Source: Ilumatobacter fluminis
Lineage (GTDB): Bacteria; Actinomycetota; Acidimicrobiia; Acidimicrobiales; Ilumatobacteraceae
Direction of reading: 5' to 3'
Assembly (NCBI RefSeq): GCF_004364865.1
Contig: NZ_SOAU01000001.1
Span: 3,442,001 to 3,506,000 of the forward strand
Length of the DNA: 64,000 nucleotides
Shown one piece after another: positions 5,077-22,689 of this stretch (the first letter of the stretch is position 1; every line of letters starts with the position of its first letter). The notes under the pieces were generated by a model that was given only the letters and a program-made list of their open reading frames with translations, did not search any database and was not told the DNA's origin. The translations under genes and the position numbers were made by a program.

Positions 5077-8055
5077 TCAGCTCTGGCGCTTGGCCGTCCG
5101 ACGAACGCCGGCGCCGAGGGCGATCAAGCCCGCTCCGACGGCGGCGATCAGGCCGTTCGTCGAGTCGCTGCCGGTGGGCGGCAGCGTGGCGGCGAGCACC
5201 TCGACCTCGAAGGTCTCGGTCGCCGTCGCATCCCCGTCGCTGACGGTGATCGTGATCGTCGCCGTCCCCAGGGCCGGACCGGCCGTCAACTCGATGACCC
5301 GTTCGACGACGGTCGCCTCGAAGAAGGCCTCCGAGTCGCCCCCACCGGGCCCGGTGGTCAGGTTCGTGAAGAGGCCGGGCTGGTCGGACTCGACGGTGAT
5401 CACGAACTCTGCGTCGTCATCGGGGTCGGTGACGGTGAACGGGATCGTGAGCGAACCACCGGGGTTGGTGACCACGTTCGCCAGCGGCGAGATCGACGGG
5501 CCGCCGCCGGGCGTCGAGTCCGGCACGGTCGTCGTCGTGGTGGTCGTGGTCGTCGTGGTGGTGGTCGTCGTGGTGGTCGGGTTCGGGTCGTCCTGGAACT
5601 CGACGGCACCGATGTCGATCGTGCGCACGACGCGAGTGGCGCCGCGCTGGTCTTCGACGAACTCGGCCGGCTCGTCGCCGCCGGCGTCGATCGCCGGCGA
5701 ACCGACCACCGGTTCGCGCGTCTCGGTCTCGCCACCGTTGTCCTGCAGCGGCCCGAGTTCGGGATCGTCGGCGAACACGAGGTTGGTACCGATGACGTCG
5801 GTCTGCTCGACGGTCGGCAGGATCGAGTTGCGCACGTCGAGGCTCGACTCGTACAGCTCGAACGCACGGGCCGCACCGTTGCCGGCGATGATCGACCGGT
5901 TCACCGTCACCTCGGCGTACTCGGCGTCGATCGCTTCGCCGTCGGACAGTGTGTTGCCCGACAGGGTGCTCTGGGTCACCTCGAGCGAGGCGTAGGCCAC
6001 GTCGATCAGCGCCGTCACGTCGTTCGACGCGATCGTCGTCTGGCGGATGGCGAGTGCGGACTCGTAGCCGTCGATCAGCTCGTCACCGCCCGTGTTGCCG
6101 GAGATGGTGGAGTCGGTGATGACGAGCTCCGACTCGTACACGTTGATGACGTCATCGCCCGACTCGTTGTCGACGATCGAGGTGTCGTGCACGTCGACGA
6201 ACGAGCCCTGTGCCTGGATCGCTCCGTCGTCGTAGAGCGCCGTGTTGCCCGAGATCGTCGACCCGTGGATCAACGCCGAACCGTAGAACACATTCACGCC
6301 GGCACCCTCGAACGCAACATTGTCGGCGACCGAGCTGTTCTCGATCACGATGTCGACCTGACCGGCGAGCACGCCACCGCCCATCCAGAAACCACGGCGC
6401 GGCCCGGACTCGGCCCCGGCGCGGTTGCCGGAGATCACCGAATCGACGATGTGCAGGTCGGGTTGCCCCTCGACGACGATCTGTTCGATCTGCTCTCGTG
6501 GATCCTCTCGACGGCGGAAGTCGTCGATCATCACACCGGCGCCGAGTCCCGACACGTTGCCGGCGATCGTGGAACCCGAGATCTCGGCGTCGAGGTACGA
6601 GTTGTTGGAGAAACGGACGCCACCTCCGGCGCCGCCGACGGTGTCGTACGGAGCCTCCTCGACCACGATGTCCTCGGTCATCCCGACCGGGCCGTACAAG
6701 ATCGGCCCATACGAGATGCGCACCGTCTCGTTGTTCGACACGGTCGAACCACTGATGTCGACCGACAGGTAGTCGTTGTTGCGGATCGAGACGCCGGCGC
6801 CGTTGTTGGCCGTGTTCTCGGTGACCGTGGACTCGACGAGTTCGAACGAGCTCTCGTAGCCGCGCTCGACCAGGATGCCGCCACCGGAACCGCCGAAGTC
6901 GTACGGGCTGGCGTACCCGGGCCCCTCGTAGAATTCGGGGCGACCTTCCATCTGCGCCGTGTTGCCGCTGATCGTGGACGCCCGGATGATCAGGCTCGAG
7001 TCGTCGAGGCCTTGGGCGTGGACGCCACCGCCGTTGCCGGCCTCGTTGTCGGTGATCGTCACGCCCTGCAGGGTGACGGTCGACTCGTAGACGTCGTTCA
7101 GCTCGATGCCACCGCCGGGGCCGGCGTAGCCAGGGCCGATCAGGAACGGCTCGGGCTGGTACGGCTCGTCGTATGCCGACATCGTGGAGTTGCCCGTGAT
7201 CACGGTGTCCGTGATGGTCATCGTGGTGTCGTAGAGCTCGTCGACGGCGATGCCGGCGCCCGACCCGGCGCGGTTTCGGGCGATGTACGAATTCGAGATC
7301 GACACGGGTGCGTAGATCTCGTCGAGCAGGATCCCGCCGCCCGACGCGAGCACGCGGTTGTCGACGATGTCGGTGTCGTCGATGACGACGGGCAGGTCCA
7401 TCTCGTCGGCGTACACACCGCCGCCGATGAACCCCGTGTTGCCACTGATCGTGCTGTTGCGGATGATCATGCCGCCGCTCGACGTGTCGAGCGTTGCCAT
7501 GTTGTCGGCTCGCCGAACGCGGACGCCGCCGTCACCGTTGTCGGAGACCGTGCCGGCGTCGAGGACGAACGAACCACCCGAGGCGCGAACGCCGACGCCG
7601 TCGTTGCCGGTGATCACGACGTCGGTCAAGCGGAGATCGGTCTCGTAGGCCAGGATGCCGGAGCCGTCGGCACCGCTGATCGTCAGGCCCGACACCGACC
7701 CGACGAGCGGCTGTCCGTATTGGCCGAAGTAGAGCGCCGTGGCGGGCGACGAGATCGTGATCGCGTCGGTGCCCGGTCCGATGATCGCGAGATCGTCGGT
7801 GATCCGAAGTGTGCCGTAGAGGTTGATCGCTCCACTCAGCCCGTCGGCGAAGGTGATCGAGTCTGCGCCCGCTGCGGCGTTCGCGTCCGTGACCGCTTGG
7901 TGCAAGCTGCCTGCGCCGACCGCATCGAGGGTGGTCACCTCGAACGAGGCCGCCGAGACCGGTTGACCGTTGACGACGATCGAGCCGCCCATCACGGTGA
8001 CCGTGGCCGCCGCTCCGACGCGCGCCAGAGCGCGTGCATCCATCCGCTGTGTCAT
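5077..8055 (-). CDS. Cell-surface parallel beta-helix protein with LPxTG-like anchor
   Basis: 992 residues. The ATG at 8055 is chosen because GGAAGGAA lies just upstream; an upstream ATG at 8094 lacks such a site. Order: signal peptide (about 1-38, cut near SAAS); a long right-handed beta-helix of repeated STISGNT / GGGVxxxD / ITDTVITGN turns; a choice-of-anchor-Q-like block (SPAIDAG, DQRGATR, DIGAVEF); a poly-Thr tract; an Ig/cadherin-like domain with VTDPDDDAEF; and finally LPPTG, a hydrophobic helix and RRTAKRQS. This is a classic sortase sorting signal, so the protein is probably wall-linked. The sortase is not in this window. Substrate or adhesion role is unknown. Confidence 0.87.
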   Translation of the reverse strand: MTQRMDARALARVGAAATVTVMGGSIVVNGQPVSAASFEVTTLDAVGAGSLHQAVTDANAAAGADSITFADGLSGAINLYGTLRITDDLAIIGPGTDAITISSPATALYFGQYGQPLVGSVSGLTISGADGSGILAYETDLRLTDVVITGNDGVGVRASGGSFVLDAGTVSDNGDGGVRVRRADNMATLDTSSGGMIIRNSTISGNTGFIGGGVYADEMDLPVVIDDTDIVDNRVLASGGGILLDEIYAPVSISNSYIARNRAGSGAGIAVDELYDTTMTITDTVITGNSTMSAYDEPYQPEPFLIGPGYAGPGGGIELNDVYESTVTLQGVTITDNEAGNGGGVHAQGLDDSSLIIRASTISGNTAQMEGRPEFYEGPGYASPYDFGGSGGGILVERGYESSFELVESTVTENTANNGAGVSIRNNDYLSVDISGSTVSNNETVRISYGPILYGPVGMTEDIVVEEAPYDTVGGAGGGVRFSNNSYLDAEISGSTIAGNVSGLGAGVMIDDFRRREDPREQIEQIVVEGQPDLHIVDSVISGNRAGAESGPRRGFWMGGGVLAGQVDIVIENSSVADNVAFEGAGVNVFYGSALIHGSTISGNTALYDDGAIQAQGSFVDVHDTSIVDNESGDDVINVYESELVITDSTISGNTGGDELIDGYESALAIRQTTIASNDVTALIDVAYASLEVTQSTLSGNTLSDGEAIDAEYAEVTVNRSIIAGNGAARAFELYESSLDVRNSILPTVEQTDVIGTNLVFADDPELGPLQDNGGETETREPVVGSPAIDAGGDEPAEFVEDQRGATRVVRTIDIGAVEFQDDPNPTTTTTTTTTTTTTTTTTVPDSTPGGGPSISPLANVVTNPGGSLTIPFTVTDPDDDAEFVITVESDQPGLFTNLTTGPGGGDSEAFFEATVVERVIELTAGPALGTATITITVSDGDATATETFEVEVLAATLPPTGSDSTNGLIAAVGAGLIALGAGVRRTAKRQS

Positions 8056-8143: not shown

Positions 8144-11065
8144 TCAGCCCGCTGAGGCCAGCGCTTGAGTCGGGACGACGAACGAGCGGACGTGCTGTTC
8201 GGCGTCGAGATCGACGAGGTGGGCGTGACCGTCGCCGGTGATTACCTGGAGGTCGAACACCTCCTGGACGAGGCCGTCGAACCGGACGAACCCGACCGTC
8301 GCCGCCGTCTCGAGATCGACGATCCACAACCCCGAGTGGCGGGGCTCGGTGCTCTGGGTGAGCGGTAGCCCGGCGAACACCGATTCGCGCACCTGCGACA
8401 ATCCGATCAGGGCGTAGCGGCCGATGAACTCCATCCCGCGGGTGAAGCCGGGCAAGGTGGTGACGACCTCGGCGTCGCCGGTGTCGGGGTCGATCCGGCT
8501 GAGCGACCCCTTGCCCGACTCGAGCACCCACAGCTGGTCACGGTGCCAGCGGGGCGAGTGCGGCATGCAGAGGCCTCGGGTCATGATCTCGTCGGCGTCC
8601 ACGTCGATGATCAGCCCACCGAACGCCTTGGTGTCGCGCCAGCCCTGCGCCTGGTCGGACTCGCTGAACGCCGTCACGTAGCGGGGGCGGCCGTCGCGCA
8701 GCGCCATGCCGTTGAGATGGCAGCGATCGTCGGCACTCAGGCCGGTCACGAACGGAGGTCGCCAGCGCGGCACGAAGCTGTGATCGGCGTCGAGGGTGGC
8801 GAGACACGAGAACTTGGTCGCCACGATCCACAATTCGCCGTCGGCGTCGTACTCCATCTCGTGGATCGAGATGTCGCCGGTCACGTGTCGCTGCCGCAGC
8901 ACGTACGCCGACGAGTAGGCGCCTGCCGGTTCGATCTTCGCGGCGACCGCCGGCTGATCGCGGTACGTCCACACCTCGTTGGCGGTGCCGACCGCCAGGT
9001 GACCGCCGGGTTTGGCCGCCATCCCCATCGGGCGCGGCATCGCAGTGAAGTGGGTGTTGAGCACGCCGTCCATCGACCGCAGCGTGATCATCCGGCCGCT
9101 CTGGTACGTCGACAACAGCACGTTGGCGTTCGCCTTGGCGAGCAACTCCGGCACGGTGCCGGTGTGCACGCTCGCCAACGGGTGCTTCCCGCCGGCGGTC
9201 GGGGCGGGGCGCTTCGGCCGCGACGTCGCCGCTGGGGCCGTCCCGGCCGCCGTCGACGCAACGGCGGCGGCACGTTCGGCCGTCGCCTTGAGCCGCGGAA
9301 GCACCTCGTTCAACTCGGTCGAGTTCATGCGCCACTTGTCGGGGTTCGGCGGCGTGAGCGTGTGGCGGGAGAGCGGCAACGGGTCGGCGAGGTCGTGTTC
9401 CCACGACAGATCGACGGCGGCACAAATCCGCTCGATCTCGGGCAACGGATCGGCGACGAGTCGGTCGTAGCCGGCGACGGTCCACCGTCCCGGAGCGACT
9501 CGTTCCAGGTCGTCGAGGATCTTGTTGGTGGTGTACTCCCATTGGGCGGCGCACACCTCCTGGACCGACTTGCCGACGAGGTCCTGCCACCCGGGCGTCA
9601 GGAGCAGCGACCACGGCAGCCCGGTCCAACCCGGCAGCTCGGGATAGGTGACGAAGCCGCCCGAGCGCCACGCGTCGATCATCGAACTGATCTCGTCGCG
9701 CGGGCCACGTGACAGGAACACGTAGCGGGCATCGGGGAACACCGTGTCGAGGAACTCGATCCGCAGCGCGTTCTTCGGGGTCTTCTCGAGGAACCGGAGG
9801 CCGGTCGCGTTCATCGGCGGCGGCTGACCGTTGCGGTCGACGAGCCGCTCGAACCAGGCGTCTCGGAGTGCGGCAACGACCGCGTCGGTCGCATCGGCGG
9901 CCGACAGCTCGTTCGAGTGCCAGTCGTGGTGGTCGGGTCGGAGCGCCGGGAACTGTTCGATCAGCTGATGGCTCTCGCCGCCGATCGAGAACACGTCGGG
10001 CGAATTGCCGAGCGTCTCGAAGAGCAGGGTGCTGCCCGCCCGTGGGGGCGACACGATGATGACGGGTCGGTCGAATCGCGGGTCGGCGGCGCGGACCGGC
10101 GACGTCTTCGGTTCGAGTGGCGCCGGTTCGCTGACGACGACCCGAGATGCTGCGGGGTCGGGTGCGTCGGTGAGCGCCGAGCGTGCAAGCCACGACATCG
10201 CGAGCGATGCGGCCGAGGCACCGTTGTACGGCAGTCGGGCATCCGGCAAGCCGCCGAGTTCCGTGGCGAACCGGTCGACCTCCCGGCGGTAGCCGGCGGC
10301 ATGTGGTGACGGGCCATGGAGCGCCCAGAGTGTCTTCCACGCGTCGAGGAACCCGGTGCATGCCGACCGGAGCGAGGCGGCTGCGTCGCCGTCGGGCAGC
10401 AACTCGAACAGATCCTCGGCGATCGCCTGCTGCTGACCGGGCGGCATCACATCGGGCAGGTTGGTCTGCTCGGGCAACACGACCGGTCGGCGACTCGGGT
10501 CGAACGGCACCTCGATCGGATCAGCACCGGAGCGGATCTGCTCCCACAGCTGCGGCGTGCCGACGGTGTCGACCACGAGGTGCACGCGGCTCTGTTCGCC
10601 AGGGTTCACCACGTTGTGGATGGCCAGGGTGTCGAAGACCCACGACTCACCGGCGGCCATGTGGGTGCTCGCCGAACCCGACACGAACGTCACGTCGGGT
10701 GTCGTGATGATCGGCACGTGGATCCGCACGCGATCCTTCCAGTACAGGTGGGCATCGAAGTGAGGGGTCGCCTCTCCCCCGGCGTCGATGCGCATCAGCC
10801 GCGTTCGACCGACCGGGACGCCGAACGCCGCGACCACCTGGGCGAGGTACGGGCTCTGATCGAGCCACGGCGTCGGGGCCTGGACCCCACCGATCGTGTC
10901 GTCGGTCGGGTCGCCACCGGTCGACACGAGCAGCACCGCTGAGTTGCCGACATGGCCGGTCGGGTGGCCTCGCCACGCCTCGTCCGGCAGGGCGTCGACG
11001 TCGGCGCGGAGGCGTTCGGCGTCGAACTGATACGGCAGTCGGATGAACGGGCGGGTGAGCTGCAT
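8144..11065 (-). CDS. Three-domain protein: Asp/Asn beta-hydroxylase, sulfotransferase, TIGR03032
   Basis: 973 residues, no signal peptide. Residues 1-180 match aspartyl/asparaginyl beta-hydroxylases: HFDAH with H102 and D104, RIHVPI, WVFDTLAIHNV with H150, and R160 for 2-oxoglutarate. Residues about 333-595 are a sulfotransferase: the PAPS 5'-phosphosulfate loop SPPRAGSTLLFE (339-350), the 3'-phosphate strand YVFLSRGPRDEISSMI, and a helical tail. After an Ala/Pro linker (about 598-630), residues 632-973 match the TIGR03032/DUF4915 beta-propeller-like family (LLSTYQSGRM, RPMGMA, LWVLESGKG). No frameshift is needed, so this is one polypeptide. A role in modifying a peptide or glycan is inference. 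The next gene upstream, the sirtuin, is on the same strand. Confidence 0.88.
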   Translation of the reverse strand: MQLTRPFIRLPYQFDAERLRADVDALPDEAWRGHPTGHVGNSAVLLVSTGGDPTDDTIGGVQAPTPWLDQSPYLAQVVAAFGVPVGRTRLMRIDAGGEATPHFDAHLYWKDRVRIHVPIITTPDVTFVSGSASTHMAAGESWVFDTLAIHNVVNPGEQSRVHLVVDTVGTPQLWEQIRSGADPIEVPFDPSRRPVVLPEQTNLPDVMPPGQQQAIAEDLFELLPDGDAAASLRSACTGFLDAWKTLWALHGPSPHAAGYRREVDRFATELGGLPDARLPYNGASAASLAMSWLARSALTDAPDPAASRVVVSEPAPLEPKTSPVRAADPRFDRPVIIVSPPRAGSTLLFETLGNSPDVFSIGGESHQLIEQFPALRPDHHDWHSNELSAADATDAVVAALRDAWFERLVDRNGQPPPMNATGLRFLEKTPKNALRIEFLDTVFPDARYVFLSRGPRDEISSMIDAWRSGGFVTYPELPGWTGLPWSLLLTPGWQDLVGKSVQEVCAAQWEYTTNKILDDLERVAPGRWTVAGYDRLVADPLPEIERICAAVDLSWEHDLADPLPLSRHTLTPPNPDKWRMNSTELNEVLPRLKATAERAAAVASTAAGTAPAATSRPKRPAPTAGGKHPLASVHTGTVPELLAKANANVLLSTYQSGRMITLRSMDGVLNTHFTAMPRPMGMAAKPGGHLAVGTANEVWTYRDQPAVAAKIEPAGAYSSAYVLRQRHVTGDISIHEMEYDADGELWIVATKFSCLATLDADHSFVPRWRPPFVTGLSADDRCHLNGMALRDGRPRYVTAFSESDQAQGWRDTKAFGGLIIDVDADEIMTRGLCMPHSPRWHRDQLWVLESGKGSLSRIDPDTGDAEVVTTLPGFTRGMEFIGRYALIGLSQVRESVFAGLPLTQSTEPRHSGLWIVDLETAATVGFVRFDGLVQEVFDLQVITGDGHAHLVDLDAEQHVRSFVVPTQALASAG

Positions 11066-11132: not shown

Positions 11133-11885
11133 TTATTTCGTACGTCGTACGAGGTCGGGGAGGATGTCGGCGATCTGGCCGATCAGCAGGTGGTCGGCGT
11201 GGCGGTCCATCTCGGTCGGCTGACCGTTGAGGATGATCACGGTCGATCCGGTCCGCTTCGCCGTCGGCACACAGTTGGCTGCCGGGTACACGCTCAGCGT
11301 CGACCCGATGGCCAGCATGAGATCGCACTCCTCGCTCACCCGCAGGGCGCGGTCGATCACCTCGGGGACGAGCGACTGTCCGAAGCTGATCGTGTCCGAC
11401 TTCAAGATGCCGCCACAGACGAGGCACGGCGGATCGGCCTCACCGGCCCGCACACGATCGAGCGATTCGCTCATCGGGCGCCGGTCGTTGCAGTTCCAGC
11501 ATCGGGTGAATCGGACGGTGCCGTGCACCTCGATCACGTTCTCGGGGTCGTGCCCCGCCGCCTGGTGCAGCCCGTCGACGTTCTGGGTCACCACGGCGTG
11601 CAAGCGGCCGCGCCGCTCGAGCTCGTAGACGCACTCGTGCCCGAGGTTCGGTTCGGCCGTCCAGACCTGGGCGTCGAGCCGGTTCAGCCATGCCGCTCGC
11701 CTGACCTCGGGGTCGTCGAGGTAGTGGCTGATGTGCGAGGCCTTCTCGGCGGCGGGGTTCTTCGTCCAGATCCCCTTCGGCCCGCGGAAGTCGGGGATGC
11801 CGGAGTCGGTCGAGATCCCGGCGCCGGTGAGCACCACGATCCGCTCGGCGTCGGCAATCGCCTGTGCAGCAGCCTCCACGTTCAT
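11133..11885 (-). CDS. cobB: Sir2-family NAD-dependent protein deacylase
   Basis: 250 residues. NAD motifs GAGIS and GIPDFRG, the catalytic TQNVDGLHQAAG with the HG histidine in EVHGTVRFTRC, and a zinc site CWNC...CLVC are all present, followed by GSTLSVYPAA. It removes acyl groups from lysines with NAD as co-substrate; CobB-type enzymes also act on acyl-CoA synthetases. The frame is open to 11939, but the ATG at 11885 is chosen because CACACT lies 6 bases upstream (leaderless) and the upstream residues are unlike sirtuins. The TTG-initiated gene at 12024 is divergent. Confidence 0.92.
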   Translation of the reverse strand: MNVEAAAQAIADAERIVVLTGAGISTDSGIPDFRGPKGIWTKNPAAEKASHISHYLDDPEVRRAAWLNRLDAQVWTAEPNLGHECVYELERRGRLHAVVTQNVDGLHQAAGHDPENVIEVHGTVRFTRCWNCNDRRPMSESLDRVRAGEADPPCLVCGGILKSDTISFGQSLVPEVIDRALRVSEECDLMLAIGSTLSVYPAANCVPTAKRTGSTVIILNGQPTEMDRHADHLLIGQIADILPDLVRRTK

Positions 11886-11891
11886 CCGATC

Positions 11892-11897
11892 AGTGTG
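11892..11897 (-). promoter_or_regulatory. Predicted leaderless -10 (sirtuin)
   Basis: CACACT on the minus strand, 6 bases before the ATG at 11885. Confidence 0.45.
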
Positions 11898-12023
11898 CCG
11901 TCTCCGAGCCGATCCGCCGAACCGGGGCGACGTCCCCATGGGTCCGGTTTCCGCAACGGCGGTCCCGTCACCTTCCTGTGGGCACCGGCTTCCCTCCGGA
12001 CGACCTCGCTCCTGGAGACCGTT

Positions 12024-20871: not shown

Positions 20872-22689
20872 TTACTTCACCGAGCCCGACAGGTCGATCC
20901 CCTTGAGGAAGATCTTCTGCAGGCCGAGGAAGACCAGGATCGGCACCAACATGCCCAACAAGGCGCCCGCCTGGATGAGCGGGATGTTGGCGTCGTAGAG
21001 GCCGAGGAACTGGTACAGACCGATCGAGATCGGCTGCAGGTCGGGCCGTGCGGCGAGGTAGAGCAAGGGCTCGAGGAAGTCGTTCCAGGCGAAGAAGAAG
21101 TGGAACAGCGCCACGGCGAGCAACGCACCCTTCGCCTGCGGCAGGATCACCGTCAGGAGGGTGCGCAGCGGCCCGGCACCGTCGATCGCCGCCGCCTCGT
21201 CGAGGTCGCGCGGGATCGTCAGGAAGAACTGCCGCAGCAGGAAGACGTTGTACGCGTTCGCGAAGAAGTGCGGGATGATCAGGGGCCACCACGTGCCGAT
21301 CCAGCCGAGCCGGTCGAACACGATGTAGGTCGGCACCAGGGTGACGAACCGCGGCAGGATGATCGTCGCGATCAGCGACAGCATGATTAGCCCCTTGAAC
21401 GGCATCCGGAATCGCGACAGGCCGTAGGCGACGAGCGTCGACGACATGATCGTGCCCGCCATGCCGAGACCGGCGATGATCGCCGTGTTCCGGAGCTTGG
21501 TGCCGAAGTCCATCGCACGCCACGCGTCGGGGTAGTTCTTGAGCGTCGGGTCGAACTCGAGGACCGGATCGATGGTCTGGATGCGGCCCTCCCACACGAT
21601 CGGCTCGGCGTCGACGTCGTCGGGATCGACGAACACGCTCGACTCGGCGCCGCGTTCGAGCAGGGCGAGTTGCACCGTGCCGTCGTCGGTCGGGACCTCG
21701 TACAACTCGAGCTGGCGGACCTCGACGTTGAAGGTCTCGTCGAGCGTCGTCGCGAGGGCGGCGTCGCCGGTGTCGACCGCCTCGGGCGCCTGCACGGCAG
21801 GGTCGAGGAAGGCGGACGGGTCGCCGTCGAGCGAGATGATGCCGACACCGTTCAGGCTCCCGTCGGCGGCCGGCACCGTGTACAGCACGGCCTCGTCGAG
21901 CGAGATCCCGAGCTGTTCCTCGACGACCGGGCCGAGGCCTTCGTAGGTGAAGTCCCAGTCGACGCGTGTCGGCAACTGGTCGACCGGCACGAGGGCGTTG
22001 ATCGCGGCACCCGGGCGCAACAGCGCGAGCGACGGATTGCCCCCGTCGGGGTCGGGCATCGCGAACAGGGCGACCTGGTCGATGGCGTAGCCCGACTCGA
22101 CGAGTGCGGCATCGAGTGACTCGGTCGAGCCGTCGAACTCGAGCGGTTCGGGTGCTGCGGCGCCGCTGATGAGCACCGCCGCGTCCTGGCCCGGCATGAG
22201 CAGGCTGACGCCCGATCCCGAGCGACCGGTCGTGCCGGCCGAGTAGACCGTCACGTCGGCCGGATCGGCGCCCGCTGCTTCGAGTTCGGCGAGGAACGTG
22301 TCCCAGCTGCCGTCCCAGTCGAAGACCTCGGCGTCGGCGCCACCGGCTCCTTCGGGGAGCAGGGTGATCGCCTGGAGCTCGCCGTCGGGTCCGGTGATGC
22401 GAACCAGGTCGAACTGGGCGTCGGCGTACTCGGCGGTGACCGCCGACTTCGGCAGGATCGTGCCCTGGGCGATCTGCGACTCGGTCTTGAGCGAGGTCAC
22501 GAACATGTAGCCGAACGGCAACAGGAACAGCACAACGATGCCCATCGTGAACATCGTCAGCAGCGATCCCCAGAGGAAGCGCTTGCTGCGGCCGTCGAGC
22601 TCGCTGTACGTCGTGGTCGGTTCCTTGCCCAGGTTCGGCAGCTTCCGCTGCTTCTGCTCGGCGGTGGGGGGATCGGAGGTGACGGTCAT
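20872..22689 (-). CDS. Carbohydrate ABC permease (MalG type) with large repeat insertion
   Basis: 605 residues; MalG-type permeases are normally about 280. TM1 is near 39-66. Residues about 385-605 contain the usual remaining helices and the EAA loop LDEAAAIDGAGPLRTLLTVI (496-515). In between, roughly 85-370, lies an extra hydrophilic segment that must sit outside the membrane. It consists of five related units of 50-60 residues, each beginning with a strand of the type VALFAMPDPDGG, LYTVPAADG or LYEVPTDDG, followed by a SLALLRPGA-like strand and an acidic loop. Membrane subunit of the oligosaccharide importer; its ATG overlaps the stop of the MalF-type gene (TGATG). The insertion may dock the binding protein. 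Confidence 0.9.
   Translation of the reverse strand: MTVTSDPPTAEQKQRKLPNLGKEPTTTYSELDGRSKRFLWGSLLTMFTMGIVVLFLLPFGYMFVTSLKTESQIAQGTILPKSAVTAEYADAQFDLVRITGPDGELQAITLLPEGAGGADAEVFDWDGSWDTFLAELEAAGADPADVTVYSAGTTGRSGSGVSLLMPGQDAAVLISGAAAPEPLEFDGSTESLDAALVESGYAIDQVALFAMPDPDGGNPSLALLRPGAAINALVPVDQLPTRVDWDFTYEGLGPVVEEQLGISLDEAVLYTVPAADGSLNGVGIISLDGDPSAFLDPAVQAPEAVDTGDAALATTLDETFNVEVRQLELYEVPTDDGTVQLALLERGAESSVFVDPDDVDAEPIVWEGRIQTIDPVLEFDPTLKNYPDAWRAMDFGTKLRNTAIIAGLGMAGTIMSSTLVAYGLSRFRMPFKGLIMLSLIATIILPRFVTLVPTYIVFDRLGWIGTWWPLIIPHFFANAYNVFLLRQFFLTIPRDLDEAAAIDGAGPLRTLLTVILPQAKGALLAVALFHFFFAWNDFLEPLLYLAARPDLQPISIGLYQFLGLYDANIPLIQAGALLGMLVPILVFLGLQKIFLKGIDLSGSVK

Follow-up and report, generated by a model that had tools for sequence, protein, structure and literature searches.

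A fused hydroxylase, sulfotransferase and TIGR03032 propeller in Ilumatobacter fluminis, and a neighbouring secreted beta-helix protein as its candidate substrate

The bacterial autotransporter heptosyltransferases are cytosolic enzymes, and the beta-helix surface protein is encoded beside the enzyme. Among them, TibC heptosylates the beta-helix of TibA, and the heptosylation sites show a patterned, solenoid-like distribution (PMC4358343). The locus described here has a similar layout with different enzymes. It lies in a stretch of 64,000 nucleotides of the I. fluminis genome (hereafter the window; NCBI RefSeq assembly GCF_004364865.1, contig NZ_SOAU01000001.1, a single contig of 4.78 Mb, positions 3,442,001 to 3,506,000), in which the gene for a three-domain protein, P0001, is followed by that of a beta-helix protein, P0002. 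We tentatively propose, with a probability of roughly 0.45 and on the basis of sequence comparisons, that P0001 is a cytosolic enzyme that would modify the neighbouring secreted protein P0002, its candidate substrate, before export.

The three-domain gene and its distribution

P0001 (8144..11065, minus strand; the initial annotation stated no strand) is encoded by 973 codons, unbroken from ATG to stop, and the resulting protein of 973 aa has the order hydroxylase, sulfotransferase, TIGR03032 propeller; the plus strand of 8144-11065 holds no gene and has stops inside. The 2-oxoglutarate oxygenase domain (residues 1-200; 10466..11065, minus strand) matches the Pfam family Asp_Arg_Hydrox (PF05118) over residues 71-167, with 46.3 bits against a cut-off of 22.6, and carries the iron and 2-oxoglutarate residues H102-x-D104, H150 and R160, which are conserved among relatives, the HxD-H-R residues being present in 15 of 15 related domains. 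The PAPS sulfotransferase domain (residues 330-600; 9266..10078, minus strand) matches Sulfotransfer_3 (PF13469) over residues 334-556 (89.3 bits; Pfam cut-off of 27); SPPRAGSTLL from residue 339, E364 in GGESH, K428 in EKTPKN, and R453 are likewise conserved among relatives. The third domain (residues 631-973; 8147..9175, minus strand), a predicted six-bladed propeller, matches DUF4915 in Pfam (residues 638-945; 380.9 bits, cut-off of 35) and TIGR03032 in NCBIfam (residues 634-962; 374.8 bits, cut-off of 251.5), and the family residues CHLNG, PHSPR and GFxRG are all found in it. The unbroken frame and these scores confirm that three domains are joined in one protein, as the initial annotation had read from the letters, and the hydroxylase motif and the PAPS loop that it described are both in place; each of the two enzyme domains keeps its expected catalytic residues. 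No signal peptide was seen in P0001 when its sequence was read by eye. Directly upstream, on the same strand, lies a gene for a sirtuin-like deacylase (268 aa, by eye; window 11133-11939, minus strand), and elsewhere in the window a MalG-like sugar ABC permease (605 aa; 20872-22689, minus strand) has an insert of about 300 residues behind its first membrane segment, as judged by eye.

A full-length relative of P0001, with 69% identity, is present in a second single-contig genome, and another, with 63% identity in the best segment, in the MAG of an uncultured Ilumatobacter; the fusion is therefore not an assembly error, and an origin by chance is rejected on the same grounds. Searching for the domain architecture elsewhere, as had been suggested at the outset, returned 16 loci with the same order, in 15 genomes that belong to the window's class and to the Acidobacteriota. 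Besides the window there are 14 further loci, among whose frames a contig end truncates one at the 3′ side and another at the 5′ side. The sixteenth locus is a copy in G187 (L051 8911-11982) that a single in-frame stop interrupts; it reads as two abutting frames, and related genomes have intact copies. The fusion loci span several families of the window's class as well as the class of an Acidobacteriota MAG (G382), and they are sparse. For TIGR03032 matches over the cut-off, fused or not, the window's class gave 14 of 395 genomes and the window's phylum 3 of 296, whereas the class of G382 gave 9 of 148 and its phylum 3 of 199. The idea that P0001 is phage cargo was discarded, as searches with it of viral contigs found nothing related and those of phage records gave short, partial relatives only.

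The modules are also found apart. The sulfotransferase and TIGR03032 domains occur without the hydroxylase in 4 frames, and TIGR03032 occurs without either enzyme in 12, some frames of both kinds being cut by contig ends; a search of 54 genomes for the hydroxylase-sulfotransferase part gave no full match and partial matches in 11. On a betaproteobacterial plasmid, that of Diaphorobacter, the hydroxylase-sulfotransferase and TIGR03032 parts are two genes that overlap by 4 bases, with a divergent neighbour encoding a choice-of-anchor Q protein. Separate homologues without co-occurrence had been named initially as evidence against a joint function; in Diaphorobacter the parts are separate and adjoin. 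Tandem TIGR03032 pairs, with one copy more diverged, are found in L128 (G844:C12), L127 (G916) and L052 (G029), and the pair of G844 has a choice-of-anchor Q gene on each side.

Neighbours, partners and fold of the TIGR03032 domain

P0002 (5077..8094, minus strand) is encoded 49 bp downstream of P0001 on the same strand. It is a right-handed beta-helix protein of 1005 aa when read from GTG (an ATG is found at 8055), with matches to Beta_helix and choice_anch_Q. Its choice-of-anchor Q domain (residues 777-834; 5593..5766, minus strand; 65 bits, cut-off of 25) was re-found at G000:C1:3447593-3447766. By eye, the N-terminus is signal-like, and P0002 is predicted to be secreted; the C-terminus (5080..5184, minus strand), again by eye, has LPPTG, a hydrophobic stretch and a basic tail, resembling an LPXTG-like wall anchor.

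Neighbours of this kind recur. A choice_anch_Q match was found within 7 kb of at least 12 of 28 TIGR03032 loci, counting the matches listed, against 0.73 expected from the genome-wide choice_anch_Q counts (P ~5e-14, a value that, like all P values here for loci, ignores their relatedness). In this count, tandem copies on one contig were taken as one; G974, G382:C28 and the second, under-cut-off copy of G029 were left out, as were other under-cut-off matches (e.g. G424:C16, G444), beside which there is no obvious surface gene, and the choice_anch_Q rows of G958, none of which, among the matches listed, is on its TIGR03032 contig. Choice-of-anchor Q matches number at least 42 in G958 and at least 24 in G971, far above most other genomes listed. 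The gene next to the fusion in G021 encodes a 1223-aa protein with a choice-of-anchor Q domain; in the Ilumatobacter MAG G381 the neighbour is cut by a contig end, and its C-terminal repeats are, by eye, common with the G021 protein, and in G382 the neighbour of the fusion is divergent. Of the 16 loci lacking choice_anch_Q, that of G029 adjoins an LPXTG-like Calx-beta protein, that of G971 FG-GAP proteins, that of G381 the truncated repeat protein just described and that of G534 the apparent end of an FG-GAP protein (by eye), and only smaller secreted-looking ORFs were seen near that of G704 (by eye). No surface gene was found beside the fusion at four loci of one genus, three of which have an AMP-ligase-like gene beside it, and the visible neighbours in G993 and G916 include no surface protein of these kinds. 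The remaining loci are on short contigs; as several contigs end within a few kb, some of the missing neighbours are unseen ones.

A set of 15 plasmid records gave a similar picture: a large surface protein (choice-of-anchor Q, autotransporter, FG-GAP, cadherin-like, VCBS or Ig-like) is the first or second neighbour at 12 of 13 readable TIGR03032 loci, several of the Nostoc copies being close relatives. For Loktanella and Nostoc C052 it is the second neighbour that encodes the surface protein. Left out were H34, which nearly duplicates H33, and a further place in one of the Nostoc records; one Nostoc locus reaches the end of its record. No surface-protein neighbour was found at the Qingshengfaniella locus. 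As a control, 178 CDS in four stretches of the same plasmids included none so annotated, one being a sortase target protein and one large and unannotated. On pNsp_a of Nostoc sp. ATCC 53789 (L069 5850-8065), a TIGR03032 gene that has no sulfotransferase domain lies divergently to cysC (adenylyl-sulfate kinase), the product of which makes PAPS. TIGR03032 is also present in viral contigs (L253, L256-L261): the L253 copy is beside an FG-GAP/RTX giant, that of L259 is between thymidylate synthase-like and DHFR-like ORFs, and a partial copy in L260 is between long tail-fibre-like ORFs.

The enzyme attached to TIGR03032 varies among these loci. On cyanobacterial plasmids its fusion partners are a TPR-Glyco_transf_41 (OGT-like) enzyme (Acaryochloris and Nostoc C057), GNAT domains (three Nostoc plasmids and one from Gloeothece) and, in Synechocystis, TPRs that match glycosyltransferase-9 marginally. 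TPR-Glyco_transf_41 genes also occur as separate neighbours: one overlaps the TIGR03032 gene in G971 and another in G958, and in the viral contig L256 one starts 6 bp after it. That the domain is shared and the class of neighbour constant, whereas the enzymes vary, suggests that TIGR03032 is the part that supplies substrate recognition. TIGR03032 genes without other enzymes also adjoin surface genes, for example in Phyllobacterium and Novosphingobium; because the domain stands alone beside surface genes at many loci, it must have some function without the hydroxylase and the sulfotransferase.

An AlphaFold2 model of the TIGR03032 domain, made with 9 sequences, had a pLDDT of 85.6 and a pTM of 0.86 (a model of full-length P0001, with a pLDDT of 42.7, was set aside). 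Foldseek and VIA-align 2 matched it to six-bladed propellers, the best being the nidogen and LRP/LDLR YWTD domains (Z 24.9, 240 aligned, rmsd 2.8), with kelch propellers also found; the propeller-like C-terminal domain of the initial annotation is thus borne out by the model. Many nidogen, LRP/LDLR YWTD and kelch propellers bind peptides, and the modelled matches would fit, without proving, a docking role.

Alternatively, the propeller could itself be catalytic and carry out the modification or maturation of surface proteins, the hydroxylase and sulfotransferase adding steps on the same protein. Across 44 sequences, the polar residues H735, D780, R781, C782, H783, N785, H836, R839, R876, R893 and E935 are near-invariant; they resemble an active site and could be catalytic, and the solitary TIGR03032 genes of Phyllobacterium and Novosphingobium would agree with this. 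However, most of the top fold matches (nidogen, LRP, kelch) are propellers that bind and do not catalyse, bearing in mind that fold shows no function, and we hold a catalytic propeller to be unlikely. A search of PDB sequences with the TIGR03032 profile gave one weak match, to a quinoprotein glucose dehydrogenase (0.0035). Arylsulfate sulfotransferase, which is also a propeller and was weighed as a candidate for TIGR03032, was absent from the 50 structural matches listed, a result that excludes nothing.

Predicted chemistry on the beta-helix

The initial annotation called the oxygenase an Asp/Asn beta-hydroxylase. This stands for its Pfam family, but the nearest solved relatives are proline hydroxylases, the first being L-proline cis-4-hydroxylase (4.3e-14), and the Asp/Asn label is therefore a family name. 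Compared with solved structures, the sulfotransferase is about equally close to CurM (6.5e-14) and to TPST1 (1.5e-13). As L-proline cis-4-hydroxylase and the small-molecule enzyme CurM are among these relatives, P0001 might tailor a small molecule or lipid, with the surface genes as incidental company; the AMP-ligase-like neighbour in one genus, and the ACP and adenylating genes upstream in Qingshengfaniella, would agree with this. The association with secreted repeat proteins is, however, far above chance and extends across phyla, which makes a small-molecule role improbable. Sulfation of a cell-surface glycan or glycolipid is less probable still: a match to the nodulation protein NoeE is weak (9.7e-4, far below its NCBIfam cut-off) and TIGR03032 of Gloeothece is near glycosyltransferases and a sulfotransferase, but no glycan cluster adjoins P0001 among the translated ORFs of the window (by eye) and the neighbour class is a protein class.

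For P0002 and its relatives, tyrosine is the residue that draws attention. Among ten proteins whose genes adjoin the fusion, or the two-gene version of it, tyrosine is prominent at one part of the coil. We made an exploratory comparison, for which the tyrosine window was picked after viewing the coil profile of these ten proteins: 242 of 518 coil segments (0.47) have Tyr in 17 genomes with the enzyme, vs 80 of 368 (0.22) in 47 genomes without it (40 new controls and 7 from the first set), kinship being ignored and genomes with fewer than four segments (G029 and seven new controls) left out. G632, whose own frame is cut, was placed in the enzyme group by genus, and the G187 copy carries a stop. 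The excess has the same direction in two taxa (12 vs 18 genomes, P 3.6e-4; 4 vs 27, P 0.013). In the window genome, 12 of 26 P0002 segments have Tyr, vs 3 of 18 in two other choice_anch_Q proteins; in the nearest relatives the tyrosines are lacking, with Tyr in 2 of 28 segments for G021 and in 1 of 16 for G381.

The effect is genome-wide, beyond the adjacent protein, and would fit action in trans, especially in the genus with the lone fusion; bulk tyrosine showed no clear difference between adjacent and non-adjacent choice_anch_Q proteins. Acidic flanks of the coil tyrosines were not enriched in the same comparison of enzyme and control genomes. By residue counts, Asn and Gly are lower and Pro is slightly higher in coils of enzyme genomes, none of them decisively; Trp and Lys gave low P values at tiny frequencies, and since the control genomes have few segments, counts of such rare residues mislead. 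APS kinase is present in 16 of the 17 enzyme genomes and is also common in the control genomes searched alongside them. We regard the tyrosine enrichment as a lead.

If P0001 does act on P0002, the propeller would bind a stretch of the long, repetitive chain before export, and the N-terminal enzymes would work along it from one coil to the next, adding hydroxyl and sulfate to exposed side chains. The oxygenase would hydroxylate a side chain of P0002, and the sulfotransferase, with PAPS as donor, would sulfate a side chain found repeatedly on the coils, most likely tyrosine, a choice that the counts above test weakly. The two enzymes might act one after the other on a single residue; the modules are, as described above, also found apart. 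In the initial annotation the substrate was perhaps a peptide or a cell-surface glycan; the neighbourhoods sharpen this to the adjoining secreted protein as the likely, still candidate, target. Modification of P0002 by P0001 is supported by the excess of surface genes beside TIGR03032, by neighbours that remain of one kind although the fused or coupled enzyme differs, by the match of the sulfotransferase to protein-tyrosine sulfotransferases, by the tyrosine counts, and by the apparent lack of a signal peptide in P0001 where P0002 has a signal-like N-terminus. Against it count the absence of the tyrosines from G021 and G381, the acidic flanks that are not enriched, the absence of a surface neighbour in one genus, in G993 and in G916, the solitary TIGR03032 genes beside surface genes and the equal closeness of the sulfotransferase to CurM.

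A broader scheme is possible, if rather doubtful: bacteria would have an undescribed system for decorating giant, repetitive surface proteins ahead of their export, in which DUF4915/TIGR03032 is the propeller that docks the substrate and the enzyme is exchangeable (OGT-like glycosyltransferase, acetyltransferase, sulfotransferase or hydroxylase-sulfotransferase), the version in the window laying a sulfotyrosine ladder, perhaps with hydroxylated residues, along a beta-helix. With modification of P0002 by P0001, TIGR03032/DUF4915, a family without an assigned function, would gain a role that can be tested, and the locus draws attention to surface proteins that may be hydroxylated or sulfated in bacteria that have received little study; to our knowledge, very few cases of tyrosine sulfation in bacteria are known (e.g. 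RaxX), and a patterned, sulfated beta-helix, if true, would represent a type of chemistry new to the cell surface. Our literature search, in a library outside which most subscription papers and all bioRxiv preprints lie, returned nothing that deals with TIGR03032, DUF4915, PF16261 or 'choice-of-anchor Q' and, within the same limits, no description of the three-domain fusion, its neighbourhood or the swapped partners.

Comparison with known systems

By its scores, P0001 is a clear member of the TIGR03032/DUF4915 family in both Pfam and NCBIfam. Like the other PF05118 oxygenases (proline hydroxylases, beta-hydroxylases, AspH), its first domain scores above the family cut-off and has HxD...H...R; its nearest solved relative is L-proline cis-4-hydroxylase. 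The animal AspH is without the Asp of HxD.

P0001 shares the PAPS sulfotransferase fold with TPST1/2 and RaxST, and in an alignment with TPST1 a catalytic Glu and a catalytic Lys of that enzyme fall on E364 and K428. Unlike those enzymes, it is fused to two other domains and is equally similar to CurM, and the acidic tyrosine context is not found in general in its candidate substrates.

As with the bacterial autotransporter heptosyltransferases, a beta-helix surface protein, P0002, is encoded beside the enzyme. P0001 would, like TibC with TibA and AIDA-I (PMC4358343), decorate such a protein before export. Unlike TibC, it has a hydroxylase, a sulfotransferase and a propeller in place of a glycosyltransferase, no domain of the latter kind being found in P0001 by the Pfam or NCBIfam scans, and the chemistry and the folds are thus other ones. 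By analogy, TibC is the closest precedent: P0001 is not a member of its family and would work in a similar way.
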